Origin: Tubiluchus corallicola
Taxonomy: Eukaryota; Priapulida; Priapulimorpha; Priapulimorphida; Tubiluchidae
DNA: 64,000 bases
Reading direction: 5' to 3'
NCBI GenBank assembly: GCA_030141605.1
Contig: JAQGDQ010000008.1
Location: forward strand, 827,501 to 891,500
This document shows positions 1 through 62,300 of the stretch, one piece after another. The translations under genes and the position numbers were made by a program. How positions within the stretch are numbered: position 1 is the first letter of the stretch; each line of letters starts with the position of its first letter. Below the pieces are notes generated by a model that saw nothing but the letters and a program-made list of their open reading frames with translations, was not told the origin of the DNA and ran no database searches.

Positions 1-2056
1 ACTAAAGTTTATTTTTTGTTGCAAGTTAAGGACTGTGGCCCTTCAGTCCATTAAGGGCATTTTGGGGTGCCATACTGATCGAATAATATTGTGTCGAATA
101 ATATTGTAAATCATCCTGAATATCGCAGGAAAGTGGTCTTTGCCATGCTGAATGCAAATCTACTTTTGGTTTCATGAGGATACAATACCATGTAAATTTT
201 GGCTACCATTTATAAAGATGTAGGCTGGCAATATGCTATTTAGGATGTGCAGAAGGTCTCTTCACATAACATTGAAAGTTTGTAGTTTTAGCATTTAGAT
301 ATCGATCTCTTTATGACCATTTAATGTCGCATAAATTAGCAAATAATAATAATTAGTGGTAAACAAAAAATATTTACTTCACATATTATTAGCATCAATA
401 TTTATTTTCCGATATGCAATTACTTGCTACTAGGGAATTTTATTGGCGAGGAAAAAAGGAGAGATCAAATGTTTCTTTATGTTTGATATTTTTACATAAA
501 ACAAACTGGTTGTGAAAAGGACCCGGGAAGTGAAAAGTTAGTTTACTAACTACACTTTAAGCAATGGCGGAAATATGACGAACTAATGACACAGTCTTAT
601 CATTTGTGGGGTAAATGTCCCACCAGTTTTGCAGTAAAAAAATTCCAAGTCTGCTACCGTACGAAAATGTAAATAGGCTTGCAATGTAAAGATAAAATGT
701 AACCGCCCGTTATAACGAAATTCATTATTACAAGATGGAAATTTTTACAGGTATTTTTCTATCAGAGGCGTCATTTTTCATGTTTTACCCTGTACCGAGG
801 TAGAAATAGTTGATGATTACAAGTAACTTGGATGCTTTATAGAATTAACATTCTCTTCACATGTCTCTCATGTAGTCAGCAAGGCTAATAAGAAAATGTA
901 TTTTTTCGAAAAATGAAAAATTTTAATGTTGATAACTCACTTACTATATTAATTATGTTTTATAAAACAACTATCTCTTCTGTTATGAACTATCGTAATA
1001 TGGCCCTTTTTCATATGCTTTCTAACTACCGTAAAATTGATTTAGACGAACAAAGAAGTAAGGTATTAGGCTCGTTGGTGAATAATGAACATCTGACCAC
1101 AGTGTCCTGTCTAATTGATATGTTACTGAAGATGTTAAAGAAAATTAATGCAGACAACTTTCATCCTCTACATGAAGAATCATAAAAAAGGGAAGATTAA
1201 ATGTACCCCTTTCAAAAGAAATCGCTTTAAATTTTCTTTTGTTCCCACTTCATTCAAAGCATTCCATACTAGTTAAACTCTAAACACTTTTCATTTTTTT
1301 CTTTTTTTATTTCAATTGTAACACTTAGATTTATGTGCACTGTGCACAATTGAATTTATTTTCACAGGTACGAATTTTTAGCGCTAATTCTTTTTACTAA
1401 ATCTGTGCAAAGCTGAAACGACAAATTTCGTGTATCTCGTATGTAGTATATATGACCAAAAAGATGTCTTTGTCTAGGTGTATGTACATTAAAATCTGAT
1501 AGCCGGTTACTCGCCAGATTATCATGTTAAGATTTCATAATACGTTTCAGTAGTTTCAGCGGGTTCACCACGGCTTCTCCCCCCCCCCCCCCTGGGAGGC
1601 ACTTATCTTGAACTGCGCGTTCAGGCTAACGAGTTTTCTCGCCAAGTAAAGTGACGTTTATGTAGCATGCGAATACATTTTGGGGGTACGGAAGAGATCG
1701 GTTTAATTGTTTTCAATGCACCCGTTTATGCAGCCTGCGTATGCGTTATTTTTCTGTAACTATTCCTATTGATATTTTTCCGCAGCTAGTCCGCATATTG
1801 GAAAACGCATCCGAATGCTACATACACGCCTTTAACTGTGTCAGTTGCGTTGTGAAATCTTGCAAGCTACAGTAAACGTTTATTTTGTTTTTAGTTTCAC
1901 TCAATAGATGGCACAACTGCATTTGGCTGTTTCAGGTTTTGTGATGTAGCCTCTACTGTAGCAGGTTGCACTGCTGTAGGGCAGAAGTTGCTGATTTTAT
2001 TTTTATTCATAATAAATAGCAGTAATTCATAGTTTTAATTTGCGTATTCATGGAAA
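1..2056. other. Upstream region of the PDE2A-like gene
   Basis: AT-rich sequence with no recognisable gene. A 90-codon open frame at 913-1185 has no motif I can name. A run of 14 C lies at 1579-1592. CpG dinucleotides become more frequent from about 1600 to 1830, which would suit the core promoter or 5' UTR of the gene starting at 2057, but I see no clear TATA box. A short upstream frame starts with the ATG at 2050 and ends at 2109, overlapping the main start in another frame; it could dampen translation. Confidence 0.4.
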
Positions 2057-8300: not shown

Positions 8301-11300
8301 GTCCCTTTGAATCCCCTTCTAGGGAAGAGACAATTTGGCAGATTTAGTCACGGGGAAATAAATCTACAATTTTTACTCACCTTCTGATGGAAACACTTCC
8401 GGTATGAAGAAACGCTTCCGGTGCAGGCAGGTATCATGTTTACAACGTGATGAAGAGCAGCAATGCGCAATGAGGTGAAGCCAGCGACACGCTTGACTGA
8501 GCATCGATTGCGCAAGGCAATGAGCCCTGGTTGTGCGAAGCTTCGCTTCAGCTATGTGCAACGCGTAACGTGGACATGGGAACCTGTCCTTAGAGGGTTG
8601 ACATGTTTTACTACTCGTAAACATCTTAGTTCTTGGCGCAGGTGTACACACATTATTTTGCACTTTCTACAGTGCTATGAGGAGCTTATCTGTCAAGTAG
8701 CTACTGTATCCTATGTATACTGTTTACACGTACGTCAGGGTCTAGAAAAGCGTGGAATTTGTGGTCAAAGTTTGTTTTTAGTTAAGCTACGTAATAGGTA
8801 TACGCAGATTATTAAAGGCAGTTTAAAACGTGAAATATTGCTGCGGTTTCGAATCAACATAAAAATGACTGTGACATCTTAGTACAAATTCTGTACCTAT
8901 CTAGTGATTGGTGATCCAAAGGTGACAGATTAACACGTGAAAGTCAATTCTGTCAAAGGTAAAGTGAAAAACTTTTTTTGTTTTTTGCAAAGCACAAATT
9001 ATTATAGCGTGAGTAATAATGAAAAACTATAAAGCGAAATTGCCCAGTTCATTGGCATGTATAGTGGAATATTGTAAATGTCTAGTGCAAGAGTCACACG
9101 TCTCACTTCCCCTTGCAGTTCCTGGTTTCCTCATTGTCTCTCCCATTTCAAATTGTCATCTAATAACTTTTTCGCTTTTGTTTCTTTAACACTTGTGAGT
9201 AGCAAAACAATTTTTGAAACAAATTTTTTTCAGTAACAGTTAAATTAATTTAAACAAATCCTTGTTTCAGTGGCTCATAAATGTTGTATTTGATTTGTTG
9301 TTGGGATGGCTATAAGTTTTCTATTAGGTAGTTAGCCTGAATACTATCAAAAGAGGAAGAGACTTTATGACCTTCGCTACATAAAACTTTCAATCGAGTT
9401 TTAATGGTTGTAATACTCTTCAGTCCATACTAACTTCCATGGAGAGAAACCAATTACATGTACTTTATATGTACATATACATATGTACGTATGTTTAAGA
9501 TACACAGTGTATACAATGTTCATTCATTTCTAGCTCGGAATTTCTTTTCTCCCTGAAATTCCTTTCCAATTCGTCGCCTAGCGAACTTTCGTCTTCTTGG
9601 ATTTGAAATTTCTCTCCTGGGAGCCAAGTGCATCACACTCGAGGGAAATCGGCTTTGTTCCTATCTTCAAGCCTATTTAATAAAAATGATTTTTTGTTTA
9701 AAGCATCTAATTAACTTTTTATCTGTTATTCTTGTGTGTCTGTTAGCCTTTTATCTATAATATGTCCTGTGTACAGTGAGTATTTTTATTTTGCTTATGC
9801 AAAGCTATGTACTTTTAAATGAATTTTAAATAAAATGAAAAAAGTATAAGACACTTATCAGTCATTAATATTGTCACAAAAAAAATCGTTTTATCACGTT
9901 TATTAAATAAGATATTAATAGTAAGTCAAACTGTCAAAGTTGCAATTTCACCAAAAGTCAGCATATCCAGTGATCCTTTGTCTGGTGGTCCTTTGTCCAC
10001 CCACCTAACTGGTTGTCCTTTGACTGCTTTTAAAATGGTAAATATGATTCTTTGTCCGGTGGTCCTTTGTCTAGTTGTCCTTTGTACGGTGGTCCTTTGA
10101 CCTACAGCCATCTTTGAAGCTCTGTTCACTCGCTAATATTGCAAGAGGCTTAGGCTTAGTCCTTGCAACAATTGCATTGTTATGGAAACGCCAATCGATA
10201 CTAAATCCATTTAGTACAGGAGTGGCATTTGGGTTGGCGTTGACAAATTGCCAAAGTGAGTAGCGTTGCATTTTTTATATGTATAAGAATTGGAAACATA
10301 GAAAGGACAAATGGTCAATATCACTTTTGATTATACACTTTAATGAACCCTCGTTTACACTTAAGTTTTCCAAATTGCTAAAGATAGTTTTTGGTTTAAA
10401 ATAATAGGTTTGTATTTGTGTAGATGCTGGGATCTTCATTCAGTTGAAACATAATTGATTAATTAATTCAGTTAATTCATTCACCTAAGTTAAAACTTTT
10501 AGTGCACATTTAAGCGTTCTACATGTTGAAATGTAGTGAATTGTCAATTCTAGAGTGCATTTACAAAAATGAAACAACAAGAGTTGCTATACACACAAAA
10601 CAGCATCATATTATCTTTCGGGACTTCACTATCAGCCTTCATACAAAGTTGACATTAGCTGTGACAAGCTTGCCATTTTACAGAACAGATTACCTAACCA
10701 CTTTTCACAGAATACGTTTTGTCACTAATTATATAGTTGCGTCAGGACATAAAACCGCTGAAAAGTCCTTTGGATTAAAATGTAGACATTCATTGTTGTA
10801 ACCGAACTCCTTAAATCTTTTATGAAAAATTGAAAGTACAGTATAGCATCCTGTTTACGGTGTATACATGTATTAGTGTTAACGTCATCAAAACTGATTC
10901 TGTACTTTTACGCCTGTCAAAAAGGTCCTAGTTGTTGCAAATGTCACAAGAGGTGATTGGCTTGTAATGCTATGTAATGTTGAACTAATTGTGAGCTTGA
11001 ACGATCAAAATGAGCTGAGCTGGTTGTGACTTTGGAGACCAAGTGGCACAATTACTGTAAAAGTCAGCAGTAGTTGTTGCTAATGTCCTAAAACGTAACG
11101 GGCTTGTAAAATTTAGTGAGTAATGGCTCACTTTAGTGTCACTAAACCTGGGGCGTCACACAGTACTTTATGTGATCACGCGAATAGTCACGTGACCCTA
11201 ATAAATGTCACTAATAAAATGATTTTCGAAAGGCCACAAAAACTAAATGATATTCTGATCACATCTTTTACAAGCACAGGTTATTACCCGCTTGCACTCT

Positions 11301-23300: not shown

Positions 23301-26300
23301 CCTTCGTTGACCCTTGTTCTGGTTCAGCTTGACTTTGTTGACGGCCTGGTCTTGGAACTGTAGACAGTTTCCTTAGCAACCTTTGCCGCGTCTTCAGTCT
23401 CGATAGCGACTTGGACAGCACTTGGACGGGCGAAAGTCAGCTCTTTGTCTTGATCTTGAAAATAGCCTTCAAGACAGCTTCATTTTTGACAGAGCATATG
23501 AATCTCTGCCTCAGAGCTTCATCTTGTGGGTCTTGTATTGAAGAACAGTCACAGGTAGCTGCATCTTGGCGTATGCGAGCTGCTAACTCCTGAAGAGTTT
23601 CGCCTGGCTTCCGTTGCATGTCACTCCAGAACTTGAAGCGTTCTTGCACAATGAAGAGTTTCGGGTCAAACTGTTCCTTCATAAAGTCGACAATCTCGTC
23701 TATCGACAGTTCGTTGATGTCCTTGGATGGAGACTGTTGCGTCGCCAGATTCGCCAGTTGTTTGTAGATGGCAGCAGTCTGATTTGTTAGGAAAACATGA
23801 GCCTTGCGTTGGTCAGGCACTGCGTTGGCAGCCACGAAGTTACAAAATCTTGACCAGTAGTCAGGCCACAGTTCAGAAGTTGGATCAAAAGCAGCAAAAG
23901 GTGGAATAGCAGCTGTAAGTACTGATGCAGGTGGAAGATGGGCGCTTGAGGTGGAATTCTCTTCAGCAGTTCGAGCCTGAAGCAGCCTCTTCATAGTGTC
24001 CATATCTTCTTTGTGCTGCTGCGCCTGCCGATCCATCTGTTCCCTCTGGTTATGAATCTGCTGCGTGAGGAGCTTGAGAAGTTCGCCAATCTGCTCCGCC
24101 GTCATTGCTACGATAAACAACTGTCCACTGAGTCACCAAGGATCCTGTCGACTGCGCCAAAATTTGTTGTGTTTTGTTTCTCTCGGACGGCTCGTAGAGA
24201 AAACCAGAAAACACGTCGTCAAATTAAACAGGTTTATTGTGTGAGAATTCTACAACACGCAAGTATGAATGAATGCGAAATAAATATACACAGTCAAGTG
24301 ATAATCTGGAAACGTGAAAGCTAGAAAGCGAGAATCTGAGATTAATACGAGAATAAACTCCAGCGGCCAGCTCCGCCTTATATATCTGTGCAAATGAACA
24401 ATCTAGAAACTACTACTACTTCTCGAAAATTCGACTGCTTCTATAAGGTAAGAAGGTTGTTCTACTGTACTATAGAATGTTCCAGATCTCCACAACACCC
24501 ATGTGCTTAATTGTTTTTTGTAAGCATGTCAAAGTGTAAAAGTGTCAAATGTAAGCAGAGTAAAAGCTACAAAAAAAAACGCAAACTCTCTACTCATTGT
24601 AGAGAGTTTGTGTTTTTGTACTTACACTCTGCTTACATTGATACTTTGGTTAAAAACTGAAGTGAAGAGACAGTAGCCCCATTCACTGAGACATTGGTTG
24701 TTAAAAGCTGTCGCATTTAATAAACTTCTTCAGAAATGAATTATTTGGACTCATTGTATGATCATTCGATTTCCAATAGCTAGTAAAAAACAGGAAGATT
24801 TTGCTCATGCAAATTTCGTTAGCGGAGTTGTCGGAAAAAATGTAAGTGTGCTTTTTGAACTGCAGGCAGCACATTGCTATATTGCTTTAAGTCACACACA
24901 TTGCACTATTTTATTTCTGCTTTAAATTAGGAAGCAAGTTTAATTTCCAAGAAACGACTGTGATGCAGCAGCCCACAGTTCAAAGGGAGTCTTGCACTTG
25001 TTAGTATTTTTTGATTTCTCATTTGTCTTTTAATTTGTGTTTCACGTTTGACCGCGTACCGTATTTCTTAATATGGCTTCCTCCGCACTTTGAATCATAA
25101 ATGTCTTCTGTGATTTCAAGTGCTTGCTTGTACTATTTGTTACGTTTACATGTAATTTGATTTCTCAACTTTGTTCATATTGTTCAAAAAGTGTCAAGGT
25201 TCACAATTGTTTGCTTAATTTATTAACGTGTTTATTGTTTAGTTTAGTTATTGAGTTATAATTAAATAATTACTGATCAAGTGCTTTAATTTTTCAACTT
25301 TAGCCTTTTTTATGAAGTCTGTTATCGTGTTTGCATTGCGACTTATAAATCCTGTGGTAATTTTTACTCATCGCTGGATTATGAAATAAATACTTGTGTT
25401 TCCCATGATTTGAATTGGGTTTGCGTTAGATCCACGCTCAATTGATACTATAAAATAATAAACCATTACCCGCTAACACAAGTGGTCCATGACCCGGTGA
25501 TACCACATAATAGTCACCTATGACCAAATAATGCTACATAACATGTGACCCATGATTGGCTGGTTTATGTTCTGCTGACCCATGACCAATTTCAACTCTG
25601 TATGTTACTTAGTTGCCTGTCACATAGTTTGAATAAACATGAAGCGAAATTACACTGTATTGTACCTCTGATATAAATCACCGCAACTCTGGTTGGCACA
25701 AGAAACGCTGATTTTGTTGGGTGATTTGTGATTGTGCAATCATTGGAATGGAGATTAAAACTTGCCATTTTGTTTCTGTTTAATGTGAACTGTTTAAAAA
25801 TTTTAAATGGAAACTGCGATAATTGCGAATTATTCTAAAATGCTTCTGACTTTTGAGAATTTTCCAATAACTGACAGAGGCCTAATGTGTTACTTTTTAA
25901 AGTTCTTGTAGTTTACCCTAAAGTGTGTTTAGGACACAAACGAAAAGTCCCTTTGCCGAGTGACTTAGTCTCGTCCGCGTAAATATATTTCACGTGAATG
26001 GAGCTTTACTAAAACCTGCTGCAAACGTAAATTTAACCAAATTGGGGAAGTATTTTGCCTGTCACATTGCCTTTTTTCTGTTGATGTACTAGTAGACTTT
26101 AAATGACCAGCAAACGAAAAACAATGTTATATAGTTCAAGTGTGGACCACCATGTGGTGTGCTGAAGAGAACCGCATGCTGAATACTTGCAACGTTCGCT
26201 GAAGTGTTGTTGCCTGAGCAGCAGTTCCACTTCTTTTCATCTACCCTGTCACAGATATAAGGATATGCAATGCTTGTGACCCAGCATACTCACTTCTAGT

Positions 26301-44300: not shown

Positions 44301-47300
44301 TCATTTCAAACAACATTAACATCAGTGATTCCAGAAGATGCCTGCCAGTTTTCATTCAACAATTTGGATGATTATTTATAAAGACCGTTCAACGATGCGA
44401 ATAAACTTGCTTTGTTATCATACAGATATATTTTGCTTGGATCAGTATGCAGTCATGTTTATCGAACGCGAAGATTTCTCATTTCTGCCATCTTCATGAG
44501 AGCAGGCTTGGCTACGTTATTAAATTTTGAATCACCGAGTCGCTCACTATAATCTAAAAATCTGGTCAATCATTGCCGATTGCTTGTAATGATTATTACT
44601 TCTAGGTTATTGCCACTTGTATGGCGATTCTGGTTTGTCTTGCGTAGTCGTCCAGGGAGGCATTAAATATGAATTAGTGGTAATTAGATGCTCAGTCCAT
44701 TATTTCCAGTTAATTAGAGCTTATGGTGAAGCTCGAATAATCTACATAAACAGTGTTAATTTTTGCCATGATCATGGGCAGTTTCATTGTAAACTTTTCT
44801 GTATACTTGTTAATTTCTTAATTGATGCATTTTTAGTTTGTTTGATTGTTATTTGTAAATACATTTTGTATGAGAATACTCATTTTTGTTGTGGTTTTAC
44901 TAGATCGCAGCCTCTTGGCGGCGGCTCATAAATGGGAGACGGTCCTCCTATGCAGGTATGGCAGGTATTGAGGACCAGGAACATGCAGCGGATATTCTTG
45001 CTTTGTGTGGTATGTACTCAGACTTTCCTAAAAGCGTGTAATAATATTAAATTTACTAACCAATAATATAGCCACCTTTAGAGATTAAACAAAGCATCAA
45101 GCTATACTCATAATCCAATTTTCAGTATATTATAGGCATATTGGGTACCAGATATGCAAATATGGGGTACCAAGTTTACCTAGTCCTTGTGTAAGTTATG
45201 ATCGGAAGTGCTTGCAGTGAAATGATCATTGCTGCTAATTCTGTGGCTACCATTTGAGTGCAGTTTCCTGGACCAGTTTACCATTATTACGATCCTTGTG
45301 AGTTAGTAGATGTCTTTCACTCAAAGAACCGAGTAGTCTTGCATTTAATGGAAATTCCTAAACTTGTCATGTATAAATGTTCACTAACATTACTGTCCGA
45401 TAATTCTTTTCTTCACTAAACAAAGCATGAAGCTTATAGTCATTTTACAATGTTAAATGTTATCTTACATTTCTGACAAAAACTTGAGGATCTACAGCTA
45501 TGTATTTTTAGTATTTTATTGTTATCGTCTTTTTCTGTAATTTAGTTTCTATTATATTTTTATCTAGCGGAATTGTATGACCAAGATGCAAGAAAGCTCC
45601 AACTTAAGTTGGTCAACTATGTAAGTTTTTCATTTACTTATAATGTGAATGTTTTTTATACAAACCGTCTCTAGCTTGATGCGTGATCAGTGGTACCAAA
45701 TGATATGATACTAGATAGAAAGGTGGAAATAGAGACTCAGATCCAGAGAAATAGAATTCTTGCAACTAATTTGCTAGCGATGGAATGTATCTATTAACAA
45801 CTTTTCTGATGAGGCTGTTGGTAACAGGGAAACAGTTTTCTGGTAGAAAATTCACAGATACATGTAAAAGGCCTTAGGGAAAAACTGGATTTATGCCAGC
45901 TGTTTTGCATCTAGGAATGTCCAGAATAAAACCTTGAGACCGATTGTTCCCAGTAAACTGTCTAATAAAAATATTATGTATAAAAATGAACATTGAGGTC
46001 TAAAAATGAAAATCAAACAATAATGATATTCTAAATAATAAATTTACAGATCATGTAGTACACAACGCCAAATGACAAATGACCAATGCCAAAAAAAATA
46101 AAAAGAAGCGATGTTACTCCAATACAATTTGTTCTCTGACTAATGCCTGTGCGTGGTAATGAGACAAACTTTTGCACCAATGCATGAACAATACTGTAAA
46201 CAAGAACTGACAAGACAAGCTCAAAACAATTCTAGGGACAAAAAAGAAAGTTAATGATTAAGCTCTGGTTGAAGTTTTTTATCAAAAGAGTTTCAAACAT
46301 GTGCAAATCAAAGTTACTGCTAGTAGATTCTAAAATTTTGAAGTATTAAGATGAGTCTGAACAGTGCTCATGGATTAATGAGTGTGGTGCTGATTTCAGC
46401 TGCCTACCAGTAGCCTTTGACCTACCCCTTTGCTCATATATACTAACTGTATATATGTGACTTGTTTGCGTTAAATTGTGCAATTCTAGCAGTTGATGCT
46501 CTAGAAAATTTATCATTTTGTAAGTTTCTGGGCTCCTGAGTCCAGATTGTGTGGTAACTCACAGAATAGTGGATCCCTACCGAGGTGTAAACAAATTGAT
46601 ATCTAATGGAATTCCCTTATCGTGCATATTTTATACTTTTCAGCTACAAAAGCACACCTCAGCTCAATGCGGCTTCCTGATGCTTGTAGCTGAAGACACC
46701 GGAACTCTTTTCTGTCAAGTTATCGGTGATAAAGTCATTGAAGAAGACATAAAATACCCTGTAAGTTTACCCTTGTTATCAGCATCAGCAGGTTTTGCTT
46801 ACCGTGCAATGACATCGATTACATTTTGCACAGTTGGGCATATATTTTATAAGATTAAATATTCCTGTGTTTTTATGTTTGGTTTTTATTGTTTCTGTGT
46901 GATGTTAGTGATTTATATTTAACAGTATTATTAAGTTGAAGGATCATTAAAAACTTTGAGCAGGATAACATATTCTTTAGTGGGGATCAGAAATCACATT
47001 GAAAATATTTTATTCTATATGGGATCATCCAGAAAAATCCCAGACCAACTCGTAGCCTTGTGCCATGCGTGCCAAACTGCATAAAAAATAAGAATAACAA
47101 ATTAAACTTTGTGCAAATTGCTTTTGCAGCCTTGCTAGTGTATAAATTGATTTTCTTCTTATAAAATATTTTATGATTGCAAGAATTTTGTAAGCAATGT
47201 AATAATTTCGTAATGCATGCAGTATAAAATGGACAGCTAATTTAGTAGTAACATTTCCTGGCATTATTTATCGTATGCTTGCTAGTAGCCGACATTTACA

Positions 47301-50300
47301 TGGTGTGAGCAAATATTGATTTGAAACTAGTCTGTGTGGAACGAGGAGACACACTGATTTTAAAAATGTGATTTTGCAAAGTATAACTTGTGTTAATGAA
47401 TATATTTCACACAATCTACATGTTTCTTGTACATGTTTTGGAAACTTTGCAAAAGATGATTGCTGATAATACACGCACTTGAGCAGCATGTGGATGAAAT
47501 TTGTTGGTGTGGTTGCACCATTGCAGCAGTGCATTGTGTGGGAAAGCAAAGCATGTTTCACAGCTTAACCATATTCAATTGTATATCTGTTAAATATAGA
47601 TTGGACAATGACCGGCTAACTGTATATATTTATTTACATCTACACAATGCTTTATCCTTTCTGTCTATTCCTTTGTTCATGTGAAATATCTTTTATATGA
47701 TCTAGATAATTTACTTTGAGTTAGAGATTTCTCAGTAGTTGCTTTGTGTTACGATAGCATCATAAAGCAACATTTGTATTGATCGGGCTTGTGTTTCTTT
47801 ATGTTGTAATTGTAGTGGAACGAATCTGTTTGCAGTGATTTTCATGTCTAGGGAAAGCGGTCTGTATCATCAACTTTCGTACTTTGATTCACGACGACAG
47901 TAGTCAATATGTGGGGTAGTGCATTTAGTCGCATCTGTGTGTGTGTTGTTGCTGTCAAATCAAAACAAATGTATCTATAATCACAAAACTTGGCATATGG
48001 ATAATTCTGGACAACGTCTGGAAATCCATTGCAGTTTACTTCAGAAAGTCAAAATTTAGGTCACAAGGGCAAAAAAATGTCAAATTAATACTAAATTTTT
48101 GCCTGCTGGGTGTTGTTTGTGGTTGTGGCTCTACACTTCTATTGAGTATGTTCTAGTATTTTTTGTATTTTTAGTGTTTTACGTCTAGCGTAAAACAGAA
48201 AGTATGTTAATGATGATTTCAAGTATTTTTATGAGAACATATTTGCAGTCGTACTCCAGTACTTTAACACTTGACTGTTATGACGGTGTTGCTTCAGTGC
48301 TAAAACAAACTGAGCTGCATGGCATGCTATTTAGAGGCCATTGCATGCGACACGGTTACGTGCGAAGCCCGCAGCTGCTTCTAGTACACTCTGCTCCTTA
48401 TTGTATTTCTGGAAGTGTATCAGTTATTGTACTGTGCTATTTTTCAGAGTCACTGTAACAGTTTCTCCTCTGTCCTTGACGACAAGAAGCCAATTTCTCT
48501 AGATGATATTTCTCAGGTAGTTTAATTTTTGTTAATTGTTTCCAAGTTTGGGTTTAAGTGCTGCAAATGTTTTTTGTGCTTATTCTTGAGATACTGGGAG
48601 TAGAATGTTGGGTGTCAGTCTTCTTGAAATATATCAAATGCACTGCTTATCAAACTTATCGAAAGAGAATGTATCGAAGATTGTAAAACCGATAAATTAG
48701 AGAACAGCTCATTGCATTATTGTAATTTACAAACTTTATAAATGAGTTAAATTTGTTTCGAAAATGCAAAAGTAAGTACGGTTAAACTAGAGGTTTTTTA
48801 AAATGAACAACAACGGTCGTATCATCCACTACTCTTAAGTTTTTTATTCATTTGCAAACATTTGAGAATTCATTTGAAATGACAAGCATTATTGTGAGTA
48901 ATAACTTGCTGCTTTTATTTGGTTTTGCAGCATTTAATTAATAGTATTGATTATCAAGAAGCAAACTGGAGATTTGCAATTTGAAAGTCCTTGTTCAGAG
49001 TTAGGCAAACTTTTTCCCCAGATGTCAATATGGAACACGCTGAGTTCTCAAATTCAAATAAATTTATTGGTATCTTTTTAAAGTTACAGTACAATTTAAA
49101 GTTATCATTACAAGTTTAAAGTTATCATTACAATTATGTGCTAGCAATTCTGGAATAATTTTGTAATGCTAGCAGGTCTGTTTCGGCAAAAAACAACTAA
49201 ATTTACTCAATAAAAATGTTATGTTCACTATAGTATAGCACTTGTTGTTAAGCTAAGACAATTTGAAATATACTTTAACATATTTTAATGACTTTGAAAC
49301 GTCATCCTGTGATGTTGTCATTTATTTCGTTCTAATCTTGTCACGTACTTTATTTTGTGCGAAAATTTTTAAATGTCTAGAACATAGTAGGTATAGCGTT
49401 CTAGAAAACATCCATCAGATGAACAAATGCAGATTTGGATTTAATTTGCTAAACTTGCTCATTTGCAGGAGTCTAGAAATGATATCAGCAGTTTGCTCGG
49501 ATTTGATGTTCACTCGATGCTGTGTGTGCCTGTCATTGAACCGGCCGAAGGGAGGGTCATCGCACTTGCTTGCGTTGTCAACAAAATAGGAGCTTCCCGG
49601 TAATTGTTGTTGATGCTGAGGAGCCTGTTCACGTGTTTGATGTGAATAAATTGGCACAATTGTTTAGTTTCTTTGTCAACGTAATTATTTCTAATGCTTA
49701 ATGGCAGAAAGCATTTGAAATAACACTGAACAGCAGTAGTAACTAAGGGCAGCTAGTTCTACTCTTTATCAGCTAATCTTGATAAGCATTGTTTTGATCG
49801 TTGCATTTTGTTTTCCTAACGTGTGGAAGGCACCAACATTTTTGCCTACACTGAAATGTGATGAATTGGTTGGGTAAATCAACATTTGTCACATATGTGA
49901 ACATTTTTCTCTGAAATACATAAAATGTTGAGTTATTGTTCTTAACATAAAAAAAAGTTTTATGATTTCGAATACATGCTTATAAGCCCATAAAAGATAA
50001 TCTCAGTTTGGACTGTGATTGGATTACAAACTAGTTACGATTTTAATGCAGTTAAACGTAATTAATATCGGCATTTATTTCATAAAATAAAACTTTGCTG
50101 AACAAGCTTTCAGCCGTTTAAAATAAATTTTTATAGGCTATCATGATAGTTTTGAATAAATCCAAACTGAACTATTAATAACTTGCACTGAATTGACATG
50201 AATAAAACATGAGTCATTCTCTCATGAACCTCTGTGGTGTAAGAATGTATCAACTAAAATTCAAGTCATCTTAGTGGACATTCTTTACAGGTTTACCGAA

Positions 50301-53300
50301 GACAATATAAAAGTTGTGCAAACTTGTTTCAAATATACAACTCCAGTATTGACCAGCACATTAGCCTTCCAGAAGGAACGGATGCTCAAAAATCAGACAC
50401 AGGTAGCTTAAATTAAATTAATTAACCCGGTCAGTGTCTCATTCTGTACAACATAAAAGCTTGTTTTCTCATATCTGTTATAATTTATTTACGCTTAACA
50501 TCTGAGAATTTTTTCTATTGTTTCAATGATGTCAATGAGTGTAACATAACACAGTATTGCAAAGAAAAATTGTGTTAATTTGATGAACGGGTTTGTGACA
50601 AATTTTTTCCTTTGCAATTTCAGACTTTGTTACACGTTGCGAAGAATTTATTCACGCATTTAGGTGAGTACAGCCTTAGTGCACCATGTGAAGAAAGCCT
50701 TTCCTTTCCCGTGTTTCATAGCGGACACATTGGGTTGCGCCTTCAGCATTCGCTTCACCATGACTCATCTAGCGGACTGGATTCGCTTACTCGGCGTCTG
50801 AGTATCATTCGCAAAAACACTCCTTTGATACACTCCACAACCGAAGATTTGAGCACAATTGAAGAGAGTGCTGAGAGTGCAAGGTCAAGCGTTGAATTCG
50901 ACGGAAAGTCATTCATCTGTGACTGTGAGGTTGAGCAAGAGATTAAAGATGTGCGACCAAAGAGCAAAAGCTTAGAAGAACGCAAACTGCCTCTGGTTGA
51001 GCAAGAGATTAAAGATGTGCGACCAAAGAGCAAAAGCTTAGAAGAACGCAAACTGCCTCTGGTTTCTGGTCCAGAATCATTACATCTCTTTTCAAAACCT
51101 CACGAACCAACAATGAAAGATTCAAAAGAAAAACAACCAGTGCTTCCCATTCAAACACTTTCAGAGCCAGAAACAAATGATTCAGAGATAAAACAGCCGT
51201 TGCTTAATTTTCCAAAACCATCTGAGCTAGAAATGAAAGAATCGGAAAAAAAAGAACCATTGCTTTCTCTTCCAGAAACTTCTGACCTGGAAACAAAAGA
51301 CTTGGGAAAAAAAGAACCACTGTTTTCCTTTACAAAACCTTCCAAGCCAGAAATGAAAGATTCAGAGACAAAAGAACAATTGCTTTTCTTTCCAGAACCA
51401 TCCAAGTCGGAAGTGAAAGAGTCAGAGACAAAAGAACCATTGTTTCCTATTTCAAAACCTTCCGAGTCAGAAACAGAGAACTCAGAATCAAAAAATCCCT
51501 TGTTTCCGGTTCAAGAAGCTTCTGAGCCGGAAATAAAAGACTCGGAGACAAGAATGAAGAATTTCTTTGACCTAGATGATGATCAGTCTAGTGGCGAAGA
51601 TGATTGGTGTTTAAGTGAACCGTCCATGGAAATGATTCCTGTGTTACCTCCAGTTAAGAAAACGGGTGGAGAAACAAAAAGGACTGCTACTGCCCGCTCA
51701 CCTGTAATTAGCAGCTACAGTTATACTCCTCGAATTGAAAATTTTGCTCCACCTCCTGCAAGGCCACCCGTCGAGTTCGACATAGAAGATACCATTGTGC
51801 CTGAAGTGCTGAACAAGCCCGTGCGGAAGAGGTTCAGGATATTGCCACATATTGATACTAATCCAGATCTTCCTCCGAAACTTCTCCATGAAGATGATGC
51901 TGATGCTGACCTGGCCATTCAGCAACGTGTTTTCATCAACTCGCAAATTACAAAACAAAACAAGGTAGCTACTAGAGTTACTGGAAGTCCAGAGGCAGGA
52001 ACGAGTAAACCACATGCAATCATTGGTCGAATTGAACCATATCACCCACTGCCCAGTCCAAAACGGAAAGCTCGTGCAGAAACCGTGGCCAAAAGTCCAT
52101 CAGATAATAATGCACCTAGTAAACCAAAAAGTGCTAAACATTTGATCGAGAAAGACAGTGCTGGGAGTTACGGAGTGGACAATGCTAGCGTCAACCGAAT
52201 TTTTGATCATGTCAGGTGGAAAGGAGAGATGTCCACTCTGACTGGAAGAATAAGTGCTGCCGAAAGAATAAAAGATGATCTTGAAAAATCACTCAAAGCT
52301 AGCAGCGACTCTGACTCTGAAAATACGCCAACTGAAAAAGAACCCATGACTGTCGTTTGCAAAAATGAAGCTGCAGAGTTAGCTGCTGGTACTGCTTCTT
52401 CCTGTAGGGATGCTCCCATTATTTCTAGTTTAACTAGTGATAACCTCCCACACAGTGACTCATTTTTACAATTTTGTAATGACACATTCAGTGATGACTC
52501 TTTCGAAACTGCTGTAAGTCAAATTACAGCTGATCATTCGCTAGAGAATGATGCGATAGAATCTAGTGTAGTCAATAAGATTGTTGTGAATGTTGCTGAA
52601 GATGAAGCTGTTGCTACAACTGCTGCAACTCAAATTACAGCTGATCATTCGCTAGAGAATGATGTGACAGAAACTAGTGTAGTCAATAAGATTGTTGTGA
52701 ATGTCGCTGAAGGCGAAGCTGCTGTATCTGGATCTTTTGAAACATTTTTTCCACCAGATGAGAAACACACAAAGTCTCTCGATGCTGCTGAAAGTTCGAG
52801 AATGCTATGCGTAAACCAAGGAATTAAACTTTCTCATGCTAGCATTGAAGAGCTTATAGTTACGCAGGTACCTACTAGACAGAGGATATTAAGCCGAGGA
52901 TTACTAAAAAGCACTGAATTTTCAACTGAGTTTCTTGAAAGGTTATCAAGAATACGCAGCTCTACTGAGACGTCGATGAAGAGATCCAGCTCTGGCTTTG
53001 TCATCCCTCCTTTGAAGTGTTGGCCTTTGCATGTTGTGTATCCCGGCATCATGTTCCGCAGCATTGAAAATAAATGTCAGCAATTCCAGTGCATTCCTGA
53101 ATGTTTTCCTGTTAACGGTATCTTCCTTTAGTCCTCTATTAATGTTTGAAATGATTGATCGTTTTTTGTGATTTCGTTATTGTCAAAGAGAAATCAGCAC
53201 AATTTTTTTCTTTTTGAAGTTAGCCTTTCTCATGTTTCTCTACTTTGGTAGACCATAACTTTTCGAAATCGGAAAATAAACCCAATGGTTAAAAACACTT

Positions 53301-56300
53301 AAGGAAACAAAGTAGGCTTTAAGATTGATGAATCAAATGATGTGAAATTTTAAGGTCTTGCAATTGGTTTACTGACTGTGCTCAGTGTTTTCTCTGAGGT
53401 AATAACTAGCAGTTGTTTTTACTAACAAATATGTTTAATTAAATATATTTCATTTAATATCTGTTGAGTTTGCGCAACTAACAAATTAATTGTTAAACAG
53501 TTTCTGTATTATTGTTATTTGTGTACTAATTTTCATTTTAAATAACCATAATAATTCATTGTTGGTCGTGCTTTTTCACCATTGCTTTTTAACTACATTC
53601 ATGTACTAATTGTTATAATAAACTATAATTCTGAAGATGTTAGAATTTTTCACTTTTATTTAATTGAAACAAGTATTTTTGTTGCTGTCATACAGCGGCT
53701 GAACTGTAAAGTGCTATACTTTTTGTATATTTGCTAACAGATTAAATTTTCAATTCATTTCATTCAGTTTCCCTCTCTAGTTAAGAAATGCTGATTTTTA
53801 AATTTCATGATTATTTTAACTTTTCGTTTGCCGTACTTTCTTGAAAGTTTCATGTTTTTTTGTTTTTTTAGAGGATGTGACTTTGCTATTGAAGGAGATA
53901 ATGCAGGAAGCTCGACATCTGACTCAAGCTGAAAGGTAGACCTGGTTGTTCTTGAAATACATGTACTTCATTCTGAGAGGTTGTTTTTAAAATATTTAGA
54001 ATGTTTATTTGACACCCGCCATACAGAATAACGAGTATAGGAATAGATAATGAAAGCAATACAATGGGGTTATAAATAGTTAAGTTATGTATGCACTAAG
54101 CAGCATTTGGAATGCATGCTTGTAAATATGGTTCTTACAGGTGCACTAAACTTGTAAAGAACATGCGATCTTTACACATGTACTTAACATATAATTAATG
54201 GCCATTCCTGACAGTTGTACTAAATATGTAAAGGACACAGACCTACAGGTGTACTAAACGTAAAAAAGTACAATTCTTACAGGTGTACTAACTGTGTAAA
54301 AGACATACAATTGGTATTTAATCTATGAAGAATATATAATTCTTACAGGTGTAAGAATACTTAACGTGTAAGGAACGTGTAGTTCTTACAGGTGCATTTA
54401 ACTTATAAGAAACATGCAATCTTTACAGGTGTATTTAACATGTAAAGAACATGCAATTGTTACAAGTATAACTATGCGAAATTCATACAAGTGTAGTTAG
54501 GCTGTTATTAATGTGAAACCGTAAGGTGATGTTCTCACTGTACTATCATGTGCAATTCTTGCAGGTGCTCACTGTTCCTGTTGGATAGAGACCAGAATGA
54601 ATTGGTGGCTAAAGTTTTTGATGGAGACATTGCCAGTCAAAGTCCATCCAGAACAGACGTGAGTGCTGAAGAAAAAATGTTTTCAAAAATTACTCCTGCT
54701 AAACAGAGAGAAATGCAAAGGAGGCAGGAAATGGAGAATGAGGTAATGTATAATGTATAAATGTCGTATTTTCGAGCTTGTTAATAAGTACTTAGAATAT
54801 ATAGTGAGTGCTCACCTAACGTCTCCCCCGTTTAGTGACATTTCGTTTTAACGATGCAACACGTCTCATTTTTTCACTTAAAAATGCATGTTTCGTCTTA
54901 ATGGCAATTTTCTTGACTTGTTCAATGCAATTTTTGAACGTAATTTGAAATGTTGAAACACTACATGCTGCGTTATTCGGTTCAAGAGTTTTTGTAGTAA
55001 CAAAAAACTATGTACAATATTTATGTTGTGCTAAATGCTAAAGACTGCATCTCTATTAAGCAGAGATCTACTTGGGACTCACAGTACCTGACAGCCTGCA
55101 ATTTTTTTAAACTAAGCCTGCCTACATCCTGTTGCTATAGCAACTAATATCAGTCTAGATGAAACTTTTCTAAGGCATAGTTAGCCCAACTCTTCTATAG
55201 TGAGGCTCAACTTTAACATAACCATGTTCACGTTAGGGATGTGCATTATTTGCACAAAAAAGGTGGATTCACAGTTGCGTGTGTTGTTGAGATACCACTT
55301 GAAAGGGAAGCAGCTAAGAGTTGATGAGAAAAATAAGTGGTTTCAAGGCAAGTGGAAAAAAAGTTAAGGAACAAGTGATGCAAACATCGTAGCAGCTTAA
55401 TAAACGCGCATCACTGCAGCGATTTAGCACAATGAAGCCCACCCAAGATTTTCCACATCGCTAGAAAAAGCATCACTTTTAATTCAGATTTTTTATTGTA
55501 ATCATTTTATCTGCTGTAGAAGCTAAGCTTTTGTAAGCTAGTGACAGCTATCTTGTTGGCGATCTTGAAACATGCTACTGTATTGGGTAATTTGATTGGG
55601 CCCCACATTCAAAATTGATCACCTTTGTGTGTTCTATGATTGTGCAATGCACCGTGCTACTGGGATCTTAACTGGGTGTAGAAGGAGCAGTGACACAGAA
55701 AATGAACTTTGACTGTTACAATGCTGACAGATTTTCCGTTTTCTGTGCTCACTTATTCGTAGTTTTGTAAATGTAGTTTTTTGCCCTTACTTAATAAAAT
55801 CTAATTTGGCTGCTCGAAATCTGTCTTAAAAGGTGCAGTTAGTAATGGCAGCTAAGGCTAAAGTAATGTTGTGTGATTGGACAGCACTTACGGTATATAC
55901 TATCATGAATGAATTTATGCAGAGATTGGAAACTATGGCCAGCTTATCATTACAATTTTTTTCATATTACCTGCCAACAGCATAATTATGTCCAAGTTTC
56001 AGCTAACCCCGTTATTTTTAGGGCTACTAGATTAAAACTTTCAGAGAGGGGTTACCATATGCTCAAGTGTTTAAATACAGAAAAAGACATTCATTTAGCT
56101 AAACAGCAGTTTGTATACCTGTAGATACATCTATCCTTTTTTGTTTTAAAAATGCTTGTTAGTGCTTTCTTTGAATGGCTCTAAAATAGTTTATCATCAT
56201 TTTGACAAGTAAATAAGGTATCCTATGATACCAACATATAAGTGCTTAAAAAATATCTCTGGAGTTGCACAATATTCCAAGCTACAGGTATGAATTTCAT

Positions 56301-59300
56301 ATCAATTTAAGTAGTATACCCTATGCGAAAAATTCAAGTACTGTAAATTCTAGGACTCCCCATTTAACGACCTTTCATTTTAGCGACACTGAACATTTGA
56401 AACCTTTTTCTCACTTAACGACTCACTACCTGAAATTGTCTTAAAGTCGTTTTATGCAGGGCTTGGCTTTCACTACACAGAAACACTGGGACCTGTATAC
56501 ATACAGGCTTCAAGAAACCACTATCAAGGCTAGCTAGATATTGGTAAGAAAGATAGGTGGTTTCAAGCAAACAGAAAAAAATTAATCAGTAGAAATATGA
56601 ATACAGTCTAATAAAACGTTTGATGTATATGATTTAAGCGGCATTGATTTTTGCTTCTGGAACGTATCTCAATTCTTTTACATTACTTTCTGTGGAAGTC
56701 TTGCTTTTGTTTAACGACATTTCACTTAAGGTCTCATTTTGCTGGAACGCATTAGCGTCGTTAAGCGAGGACTTACTGTATGTGGAATCTGCTGTAAATT
56801 TGTTTTGTGAAGTAAAGTTTAGTAAACTTTAAAGTTAAAGTTGACATAAAGTTAACCTTACATAATCCTTTAACAACTTGTTTTAACATTCAGGTTCGCA
56901 TACCAGCAAATCAGGGTATAGCTGGACATGTGGCGACCACTGGTCAGCTATTGAACATACGTGATGCTTATTCGCATCCACTTTTCTACAGGGGTGTAGA
57001 CGATTCTACAGGATTCAAAACTAGGTACTTTTTGCTTTTATGGTTAAACGGCACCTATGGCGAATCTGCAGAAGTCACCTTAAAGTATTTTCACTTGAAC
57101 TAGACATTGTGGCAGGACCAGAATCCGACTCATTATCAAGGCGGCTAACCTTCAATATAAAACACTAAATGACAGAAGTGTCTCAGCCACATTTGGATGT
57201 GAGTACTATCTCCTTCAATGAGGTAAACAAGCAAAATCCGTATGCAGAATGAAGCCTTCTTGAACAAGTATTGAATTTAGTGGTCATCCATCCATTCACT
57301 GACCAGCCTGGCACTTATTTAACTTAGGTGGCAAAGCACACATTGTGACCATTCGGGTATTTGTTGCCCCAATGTCAGTAAATGAAATAGTGACATACCA
57401 GCAAAAGCTACAGTTATTATACATGTACAGCATGTTATGTTAGGCAATGCTGAAAAATTTTGGAGATGACTCGATTGCTTTGCGAAATTTAGCACTTCTG
57501 TTTCCTTTAGATGTTGTTAGTAGTTTCCAATACTTTGTTAAAGTAATAATAATGTCAAAATTTATGTCAGCTCAAAAAAATTACACTATTTATCTTTGTT
57601 TTAGGAATATTTTGTGCTTTCCAATAAGAGATGAAAAAGGTATGAATTTATTCATTTCTGATAAATACTGATTATGCCTGGAAGTTAGTGTTTTAGTATC
57701 TACAGGTCGGAAAAGCGCTTCTAAACACTAATTATGTCCAATATTAATCAGTTTCTACACATGAATAAGAAATTGGAAAAATAAACCTATTGATTTTTTG
57801 CTTGTAAACACAAGTTTCACCTCCATGTTTAGCAACTGGTGACGTAAAATCGAGTGGAGCTTTAACTATATCTTATTATGTAAAAGAACAAATGCATGTA
57901 GTTGAATGAGTGATAAGCACTGGCACTTAACTACAAAATTAATCGAGTACTTTCAAGTGCTTTGTACACAGCTACTTGGCTGTGAAGTTTGATCAAGTAC
58001 TTTTAAGTACTTGTAAGCAAATGCTAAGTATTGATCTAAGGTTTGACAGTTCACCTATAAAAATAGAAAGCTTAGTGTCACAATTGCTTAAAAAATTTTG
58101 AGAAACATAGTATACTCAAATTATAAAGTTTTTATAGCTCTTAAAAGTCTTTCAAAACTGAAATTTAATTCTTTCCTTTTCTGTGAAGAACATCGTTCAT
58201 CTGTTCTGTTGTCAGATCCTAAAGGAATGATTGTCAGTGTGACTCTCATCCAAACTGAATATTACAGTAGTTTACTGCTTAATAAAACTGTTGCCAGTGT
58301 GTGTATTTGGCAAAGTACAATATGTAAATGTTGCTCCCTAACTAATACTATGACAATTAAACAAAGGGCAGTCACCTCCCTGACATGCCTTCCAAATGAC
58401 TTAAGTGCACAAGTCATTCAAGTGCTTAGCATCTGTGGAGAGAGAGAGCAGTTGTGACGAAACAATTGACTAACTTTTAGGGTGACTTTGATTAAGTAGA
58501 GGTGAATCTAAGGAACGGCCCTTAAATTTCAACTGTATCTTAAAAAGTAGACAAAGCACTATTTAATATTTCATTTTGTTTTTGTTTTTCTAGCTTTTTA
58601 CTGAAAAATGTGTTCTTGTCAAATGATGCATTGGTTTTGTAGTCGAATTTTCTTAACTAAGTGGTTCTAAAGTGCGACTGGTTTTATTATCCTTGGTTTC
58701 ATTAAGTAGCATCTACTATATACCTTTTAAATTTGAGTACTTGCATAACACAATTCAAAAATACTGCAAACTTTTGACCATTTTCTTTTTGTTTTAGGAG
58801 TGATAGGAATTGCAGAATTGTGCAATAAGATCAATGGTGCTTATTTTACACAGTTTGATGAGGAGATAGCAACTGCATTCTCTGTTTACTGTGGACTCAG
58901 CATCGTACATGTATGGTTTTTTCATTATAGTTTCTCAGCAAAATATTCCATGCTAACACATGTCGTTAGTTGTTTTTTAAAGTAAAAACCAACTTTTAAA
59001 GACTCCGGCATAATAGCTGCAAAGTATTATAATTAGTTTACAGAGAGATTAACATGTTAATTTAATCCAGTAATGTAACTGATTAGCAACTCAAGAATTT
59101 AAAATAAATTAATTCATTAATCGCTTTTCTGAATTAGAAAATTTATTTGCAAAGCTTGAAATTTACCATGACTATGACTGTTTTAATATTGCCTCATTTC
59201 ATACTAATTTTTTTATCTTTAAATTACCCTATACTATCCTACACTGCTAAATGTATTTAAAATAAAAAAACTGAGAATTGAAAACTTGGGTTTTACATTT

Positions 59301-62300
59301 CTTGCTAATGGTTACATCATCATCAGATTACCAATATTCAAGTCGGAGAATTCACTTGTAATGACGTCGTAGTGTAGTGGTTACCATTACAGACTGAAAG
59401 TCATATAGTTTAGGATTCATACCATCGTGTATAATCTCAGATTTTTTCTGTAAATTTAATGTATGCCATTTATCTAGGAAGTTTTATCAGTAAGACAGTT
59501 AATTAACAACCTAACTTGTCACCATTAATTAACGAAAATGTGACACAATTTCTTTGATTTTTCAGTCTCTAATGTACAGAAAAGTTTGGGAAGCACAACA
59601 TCGGAGCCACTTGGCTAATGAATTGATGATGTACCATATGAAGGTTGGTGTGTCGTGCTTAAATTGTAGTAATAAAAGTTTCAGTATAAAAGTAATGTAA
59701 CCATTAGTAAGTAAGCAATTTATTTAACTATTACATGTACTATTGTAATAACAGCTATCTTGCAAACAGTCATTTCTAAAAGCCAAGTCATATGAGGATA
59801 GAAGAGGACGATGTATTTCTAGATTCCATTGTGAATCCTGTGGGATTGTTGGGAAAGCTCTCGGACACATATGCTATTGTTGTTCCATAACTGGCTATTA
59901 TGATTTTACAACTAACGTGTCTATGTCTACACTTCATCATTAACCTTATTGTTGTTAGGCAGTAGTAAACAACATGCGTGGAATGTTTATCTCATCGAGG
60001 GTTTTTATACATATTATTTTACTTAGCTCTGCACAGGTTTTATACTTTGTCATGTGACTACAGGTTACCGAACCGGAATACAGGAGACTTACTACCTGTG
60101 ATGTCAAACATCCGGAAGAATATGGAGAAATGTTCACGAAGTTTTGCTTTCTGCCACGGTCCCTTTCAACAGAGGACAGTTTATCGGTAAGGTGGAAATC
60201 TTGTCAAACCCTACAGAAGGGTTTCTGTTCTACTTTTGCTTATCCAGAATTCTTAATTTTAGGTGTTGTTTACAGTGCAATTAAATATTTTACTGTGTCT
60301 GAGAAATTTTTAGTGATTACATGAATATGTTCATTTAAGATATTTATTGTTTCATACACTATTTGCAGTACATTTACAAAACATTTTCACAAAATACTAA
60401 TTCTCACAGTTTAAAGTTCAATATACAATGAATCAATATGGTGAAACAAACATTAAAACAAATGAAAGCTGTTGTTCTGAAAATTTCCTAGGGTGCTTAT
60501 ACACTAGATTTTCTACATTTTCAGGCAATGTTAAGCATGTTTGATGACATGGGTTTCATTCGGAGGTGGCGAATAGAGAGAGAAACATTGGCTCGATTTA
60601 TAATCATGGTGAAAAAAGGATACCGGGACGTACCGTATCATAACTGGTTTCATGCTTTCGCTGTTACGCACTTTTGTTACTTATTGTACAAGAATCTCCC
60701 TTTGCTAGACCACCTCACGTAAGTACTGTGTGTAGTTGTTCAATAATTATTATTATAAACTGATGTATGCTATTATTATTGTATGCTATTTAAACCAAAT
60801 TAACTAATCTTGTTATCATCTTGGAAACAACATTTGAAATTTTACATGGTTTCTGACCACATTTGAGATTTTTGGTCCTGACAATGAAAGTCCTTTTTTC
60901 TTTTTTAGGGAAATGGAAGTATTTGCCCTGTTTGTTGCATGCATGTGTCATGATTTAGATCACAGAGGTACTAACAACTCATTTCAGGTAAAGTAATGAG
61001 TTTTTTCTAAAATATTTCATTCTCATTTATCTTAAGGTGTGGTCAAAATGTGCCATGCTGATGACCTAACTTTGAAAGTTTCTTTCGATAAATTGAATGT
61101 GTTATCTCACATCAATTTCTTTCTCAGTTAAAAATATTGATTTCTTTCTTTAGCAATTGTATTATACTAAACCACTAATGTTTGTCCTAAAATTCACGAA
61201 GCTCTGTACGTGTTTCATTGACTACATTCTGCCCTTTGAGAAGATTTGTGTATCTGTCCTCTATATGAAAGTTGTCTTTGTTAACTGTTACATCTTGCCA
61301 CTGTTGATACTATAAACAGAGAGTGTGTGTGAATGTAAACAATCAAAAGTAGTATAAACTTTGTTAAGAAAGCAAGACAAACAGCCATAATAAAATATGT
61401 CAATGATGTCATTGGGTATTCATGTTTCAGGTTACGTCCAAGTCCATACTGGCTGCTCTGTACAGTTCTGAAGGATCGGTAATGGAACGACACCACTTTT
61501 CACAAGCCATGTGCATCATTAATATGCAAGGTTCAGACATATTTGAAAACTTATCAAGCAAGGTAAGAAATTCCTCATCTTTGGAATTGTGGCATCTGCT
61601 TGTGTAAAAATAAAGTGCAGTCACTCAAAAGTTATCCTTTTGTAGGATCAAACTACACTTTCGGTTTTTTGTTAGTGTCTTGTCACATTCCTGTTGGCTT
61701 ACTTTGCATAAATGTGTTTATATATGATTCTAGATTTACAGCGTGGCATCTGGCTACATGTGCATTTGATCTACCACAATTATAATAAAACAACACTATT
61801 GTCAAACATTGTCAAATTTCGGTGAAAAAACCTCTGACAAAGCATATAGTAATCCACAATTCTAATATTATTTGCCAGAGTAGGGATTTTCGGCATGTAT
61901 ACGTATGTCATGCATGAAAACTGTTTTAATGAGTTATAATCATTATTGTAGCATGTTTTATTTATTTATCTGTATAGGAGTATCAACAAGTTCTGGACCT
62001 GATGCGAGATATTATTCTTGCTACTGATTTATCTCATCATCTAGTTATTATGCCTGAGTTGGAAGCCATGGCCAAATGTAAACTGCATATTTATTTATTT
62101 TCTCTAAGCTAAGTGTGTAGTAATTATTTTAGGCCTATAGTAGGCCTGTAGTTCATAACATTTTAAAATATTTGAATTAAGTGTTTCTGATAAAAGCTAC
62201 GTCGTAATTTCACACGCATCTCTATTATCTTATTATATTCAACAATGTATTTTTATAGGTGGATACCAAGCTAATAACCCAAAGCATCACAAGTTGTTAC

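Follow-up and report, generated by a model that had tools for sequence, protein, structure and literature searches.

An open frame of 822 codons continuing from exon 13 of a Tubiluchus corallicola PDE2A gene is a candidate alternative C-terminal exon

In Tubiluchus corallicola, the reading frame of exon 13 of a PDE2A gene, which encodes an enzyme that breaks down the messengers cAMP and cGMP, runs on past its splice donor for 822 codons. This continuation, referred to here as the tail (50663..53131 on the + strand, closed by TAG at 53129-53131), lies in the 64,000-nucleotide stretch of DNA that we analyzed (the window). Judging from its frame, codon usage, and repeats, the tail is very probably coding sequence, and its product is predicted to be mostly disordered. 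We put the probability that it is an alternative C-terminal exon of PDE2A at about 0.5. This figure covers two routes jointly, read-through from exon 13 and a splice that links exon 11 with an acceptor at 50722, with read-through somewhat ahead. The sequence does not decide between these routes, and RNA is needed to choose.

The PDE2A gene is on the + strand. A tblastn search placed collinear exons over 45570-62906 for GAF-A, the linker, GAF-B, and the catalytic domain, and a genome-wide Pfam search put PDEase_I matches at about 60636-62918, inside the same stretch. The tblastn query was human PDE2A, which served only to locate exons, and the N-terminal region was recovered only in part by this homology. 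Exon numbers (11 to 15) are those of the initial sequence reading. Splice sites were scored with a simple position matrix built on general metazoan site frequencies; its scores rank the sites and are not probabilities. Exon 11 (49469..49599; GAF-A) was placed by homology and ends in phase 2 at the donor CCG/GTAATT (49600). The last part of GAF-A is encoded by exon 12 (50291..50402), which ends in phase 0 and is 59% identical to human PDE2A over 37 residues. Exon 13 (50624..50663), also placed by homology, encodes the linker helix. It has an acceptor scoring 10.0 and comprises 13 residues plus one base, ending in phase 1 at the donor TAG/GTGAGT (50664..50669; score, 10.4). Its usual partner is exon 14 (53872..53935; acceptor, TTTTAG/AGGATG), likewise found by homology. 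The original prediction was that exon 13 ends at a gtgagt donor and that splicing to 53872 restores the family sequence. This was correct, because the translated join gives the PDE2A linker as in the rest of the family. Two other features of this part of the gene were noticed. Intron 14 contains a degenerate tandem array with a unit of about 34 bp (ACAGGTGTACTAAA..., 54138-54400), and exon 15 (54565-54742) encodes about 35 extra GAF-B residues compared with human PDE2A, which replace a short loop before EIRIPADQG.

The claim that an 822-codon open frame passes through the exon 13 donor was reproduced. From stop to stop, the frame spans 850 codons, 822 of them after exon 13. At the base composition of the tail, the probability of a stop-free run this long is 2e-23 for 822 codons (about 1e-23 for 850 codons), which excludes a chance frame. 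The remaining five frames across the tail have between 20 and 89 stops each. An antisense gene was also excluded, because every minus-strand frame of the tail has at least 20 stops. Elsewhere in the window, the longest stop-free frames run for 231 and 142 codons, and the tail frame is 3.7 times as long as the longer of these. The 231-codon frame (23437-24132, - strand) is a gag-like retrotransposon ORF, apparently in a PDE2A intron.

Base composition and codon usage point to coding sequence. GC content is higher in the tail than in its flanks, and by codon position it is 51, 42, and 33%. The codon score of the tail frame is positive in every scoring interval from about 50780 to 52990, and the other frames are mostly strongly negative; the codon model was trained on the distal tail, so this is an independent test only for the part before 51560. 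The codon score lies close to zero over 50664-50839 and beyond about 52940, and it is below zero in the last 150 nt of the tail. The main tandem repeats, all on the + strand, are 66, 60, and 111 bp long, each a multiple of three. Tandem repeat analysis found two identical 66-bp (22-codon) repeats at 50929..51064. Eight degenerate 60-bp (20-codon) repeats at 51089..51568 have no stop and a pooled dN/dS of about 0.57. Two 111-bp (37-codon) repeats at 52505..52726 are about 90% identical, and with 3 synonymous and 10 nonsynonymous differences this pair shows no constraint. Serine (12.7%), glutamate (10.7%), and proline (8.3%) are prominent in the translation, which has 136 acidic residues versus 100 basic ones. 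These repeats and this charge bear out the earlier description of a coherent, acidic, repeat-bearing tail, and the translated composition matches a disordered acidic protein. AlphaFold2 run on the single tail sequence gave a mean pLDDT of 34.8 and no confident fold, a result that is uninformative by itself. Near the start of the tail (50663-50815) is LTRRLSIIR, which contains a textbook R-R-x-S site of the PKA/PKG type. The protein itself would belong to the cyclic-nucleotide pathway, but the motif may be chance.

Searches for relatives of the tail returned little. Pfam had no match above the cut-off and a single match at chance level, no relative was found in the PDB, IMG/VR, or prokaryote genomes, and the tail resembles no PDE sequence in Pfam or the PDB. 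A transposon or virus ORF was considered and rejected, because no known family matched and the genome has one decayed partial copy. That copy, which lies at about 105.9-107.7 kb of contig C34, is the sole genomic relative of the tail in the 343.5-Mb assembly searched. Its pieces match tail positions 52095-52842, part of the 3' half, at 77 to 90% DNA identity, and they are broken and partly inverted. PDE2A exons, including exons 12 and 13, are absent from the locus. We considered whether it might be a processed copy that reveals the splice junction, but it has tail sequence only and is silent on the junction.

The C34 copy bears on the possibility that the tail is a coding relic, a former exon that now sits passively in the intron and is open because its decay is recent, with the C34 fragments as another remnant. 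The copy is decayed and rearranged, as a relic would predict, and the divergence between the two shows no protein constraint. There are 20 synonymous and 57 nonsynonymous differences (dN/dS of about 1), and the three codon positions have changed at equal rates. The two copies thus show no visible conservation at the protein level. However, the reading frame tells against a relic. C34 has three frame-breaking indels within the blocks that align well (567 sites, 13.6% divergence); the window tail has zero frameshifts and zero stops over 822 codons, and its repeat expansion preserved the frame. If the window tail had been drifting over half of the C34 divergence, about 8 stops would be expected, and 0 were observed (P of about 4e-4). 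This argument is good but imperfect, because the C34 blocks are likewise without substitution-made stops. We consider a relic unlikely. As a separate observation, in C34:100001-110000 the tail copy sits between two ORFs that look transposase-like by eye, one Tigger/pogo-like (101-1219, minus strand) and one piggyBac-like (8390-9889, minus strand; positions within the segment). In front of each of two C34 tail fragments lies a copy of a single sequence about 75 bp long.

How would the tail be joined to a transcript? The first ATG in its frame, at 51113, follows about 149 open codons. Because this ATG is so far inside the open region, an intronless nested gene was excluded and an upstream exon is needed. 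Exon 13 fits the frame of the tail, and the coincidence of its frame with openness over 50664-50721 would arise by chance in about 9% of cases (1/3 x 0.27). To this extent, the original prediction is supported: the tail appears to be coding, it needs an upstream exon, and exon 13 is in frame. However, the donor that would have to be skipped is the best scored. At 10.4 bits, the exon 13 donor is the highest among the PDE2A donors scored, and it is equalled by 0 of 902 GTs in 15 kb of intron sequence, which argues against routine read-through. Sites at 50722 and 53118 also offer other routes.

The first of these is a candidate acceptor on the + strand, TTTCATAG, after which the first bases are CG (50722..50723), 58 nt into the tail. 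It is in phase 2 and scores 10.8; of 812 intronic AGs, 3 score as high, and only one of nine homology-supported acceptors scores higher. The chance of an acceptor this strong near the start of the tail is about 3% (there are 7 AGs in 50670-50800, and 1 of 188 tail AGs is as strong). Translated joins put 50722 in frame with exon 11 and out of frame with exons 12 and 13. Splicing of exon 12 or exon 13 to 50722 was rejected, because the frame is lost. We also rejected a short in-frame extension via a donor at 50925, because its join to exon 14 creates a stop. With read-through from exon 13 and the exon 11 splice, PDE2A has at least two ways of reaching the tail without loss of frame.

The acceptor at 50722 could instead belong to a nested gene that is separate from PDE2A and shares its strand. 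In that case the tail would be its last or only large exon, spliced through 50722 from a 5' exon elsewhere, and it would have no protein in common with PDE2A. The strength of the acceptor is consistent with a nested gene, as are the lack of relationship to any PDE in Pfam or the PDB and the partial C34 copy without PDE2A parts. Against this, in the 3.8 kb upstream (46800-50664) the only ORF longer than 4 codons with a phase-2 donor is that of PDE2A exon 11, which is the sole candidate first exon there, and the exon 13 frame enters the tail stop-free, at the 9% chance given above. We regard a nested gene as rather unlikely. Like the tail, nested genes and exonised intronic sequences are coding units in a host intron (PMC3192792), and such units can disturb host transcripts by intron retention, exonisation, or cryptic polyadenylation (PMC3192792). 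The tail differs from nested genes in that no first exon was found for it within 46800-50664. If it is a nested gene, it is an ordinary one.

The site at 53118 is a weak phase-1 donor (ACG/GTATCT, 53118..53123, + strand; score, 4.2), four codons before the stop. Its join to exon 14 at 53872 is open and in frame, and it restores the Glu of EDVTLLLKE. With this donor, exon 13 would be extended to 53117 as a giant in-frame exon, and the whole tail would become an 818-residue disordered insert between GAF-A and GAF-B of a complete PDE2A. No intronic poly(A) site would be required, and the score of 4.2 is within the range of PDE2A donors in use (lowest, 3.5). However, the strong donor at 50664 would have to be skipped in favor of a weak one, and the coding score below zero in the last 150 nt does not fit an exon extending to 53117. 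The chance of finding so good a phase-1 donor this close to the end of the tail is about 3%, but several such options were examined. Internal exons of 2.5 kb are also rare, which counts against a giant exon. Of the readings weighed here, we regard this one as the least probable.

Termination before exon 14 would need a poly(A) site. AATAAA occurs on the + strand at 53275..53280, as noted in the original prediction, and again at 53617, as possible poly(A) signals. From the base composition, we estimate that about 0.8 such hexamers would be expected by chance in these AT-rich 741 nt. Their number is at chance level and therefore gives no evidence for a poly(A) site, so that the hexamer after the stop is present but adds no weight to the prediction. 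The one at 53617 is better placed, having a T/G-rich stretch, GTATTTTTGTTGCTGTC, about 60 nt downstream. The certainty of the initial reading was too high on both read-through and the poly(A) signal.

If the tail is an alternative terminal exon of PDE2A, then by the read-through route intron 13 would be retained as part of a composite terminal exon, with poly(A) addition before exon 14. By the other route, exon 11 would be spliced to the acceptor at 50722, making the tail part of a skipped terminal exon, and the product would lack the part of GAF-A that exon 12 encodes, its end. The predicted protein would consist of the N-terminal part, all or most of GAF-A, and about 800 residues of mostly disordered, acidic sequence with repeats, and it would have neither GAF-B nor the catalytic domain. 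GAF-A mediates dimerisation of PDE2A (PMC7590001, PMC13095499), and we propose from this that the tail form might pair with full-length PDE2A through GAF-A and so dilute or relocate its activity. The existence of the transcript, its route, and the stability of the protein are all inferred. A tentative extension of this reading, which we think doubtful, is that PDE2A here yields a catalytically dead GAF-A protein with an 800-residue disordered tail, dimerising via GAF-A as a dominant-negative or scaffold form, or, by the 53118 donor, an active enzyme with a giant linker.

The mechanism would be of a known kind, an alternative terminal exon, with an unusually long added frame. To our knowledge, the extensions in isoforms made by intronic polyadenylation (IpA) are short, far below 822 codons, and we know of no other PDE2A form in which the dimerising domain is kept but GAF-B and catalysis are lost. 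In many human genes, IpA gives rise to terminal exons of the composite and skipped classes, with 61.6% of assembled cases being composite (PMC5928244). By analogy, this supports an alternative PDE2A terminal exon. As with the IpA isoforms of immunoglobulin M, KCNH2/Kv11.1, CstF-77, and the human IpA atlas (PMC5928244, PMC7829756, PMC3708835), an intronic 3' end would truncate the protein and add a C-terminus, and as in the composite class the frame would continue beyond the skipped donor. There are differences, however. The skipped donor of CstF-77 is weak, whereas that of PDE2A exon 13 is strong. Human enzymes mostly retain their active site in IpA isoforms (PMC5928244), whereas the PDE2A tail form would lose the catalytic domain.

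PDE2A1, PDE2A2, and PDE2A3 differ only at the N-terminus, and their domain structure, including catalysis, is common to all (PMC7590001, PMC13095499). The tail form would resemble them as an alternative form of one gene but would change the C-terminus instead, and no PDE2A form with a replaced C-terminus is described in the literature searched. If transcribed as a PDE2A product, the tail would yield the first form known to us without GAF-B and catalysis but with the dimerising domain, and a natural test of whether a product of the same gene can poison or relocate PDE2A dimers. The tail itself is very probably a fast-evolving, repeat-expanding, 2.5-kb coding exon in an enzyme intron, and it may represent a step by which a new protein end originates.

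We also noticed GAF matches elsewhere in the assembly, on contigs C1 (28697-28954 and 53849-54106), C735, and C2177. All lie within open frames of 389 to 1019 codons, and C1 carries one GAF match twice, in opposite orientation. The long frames suggest that these three are bacterial contigs in the assembly.
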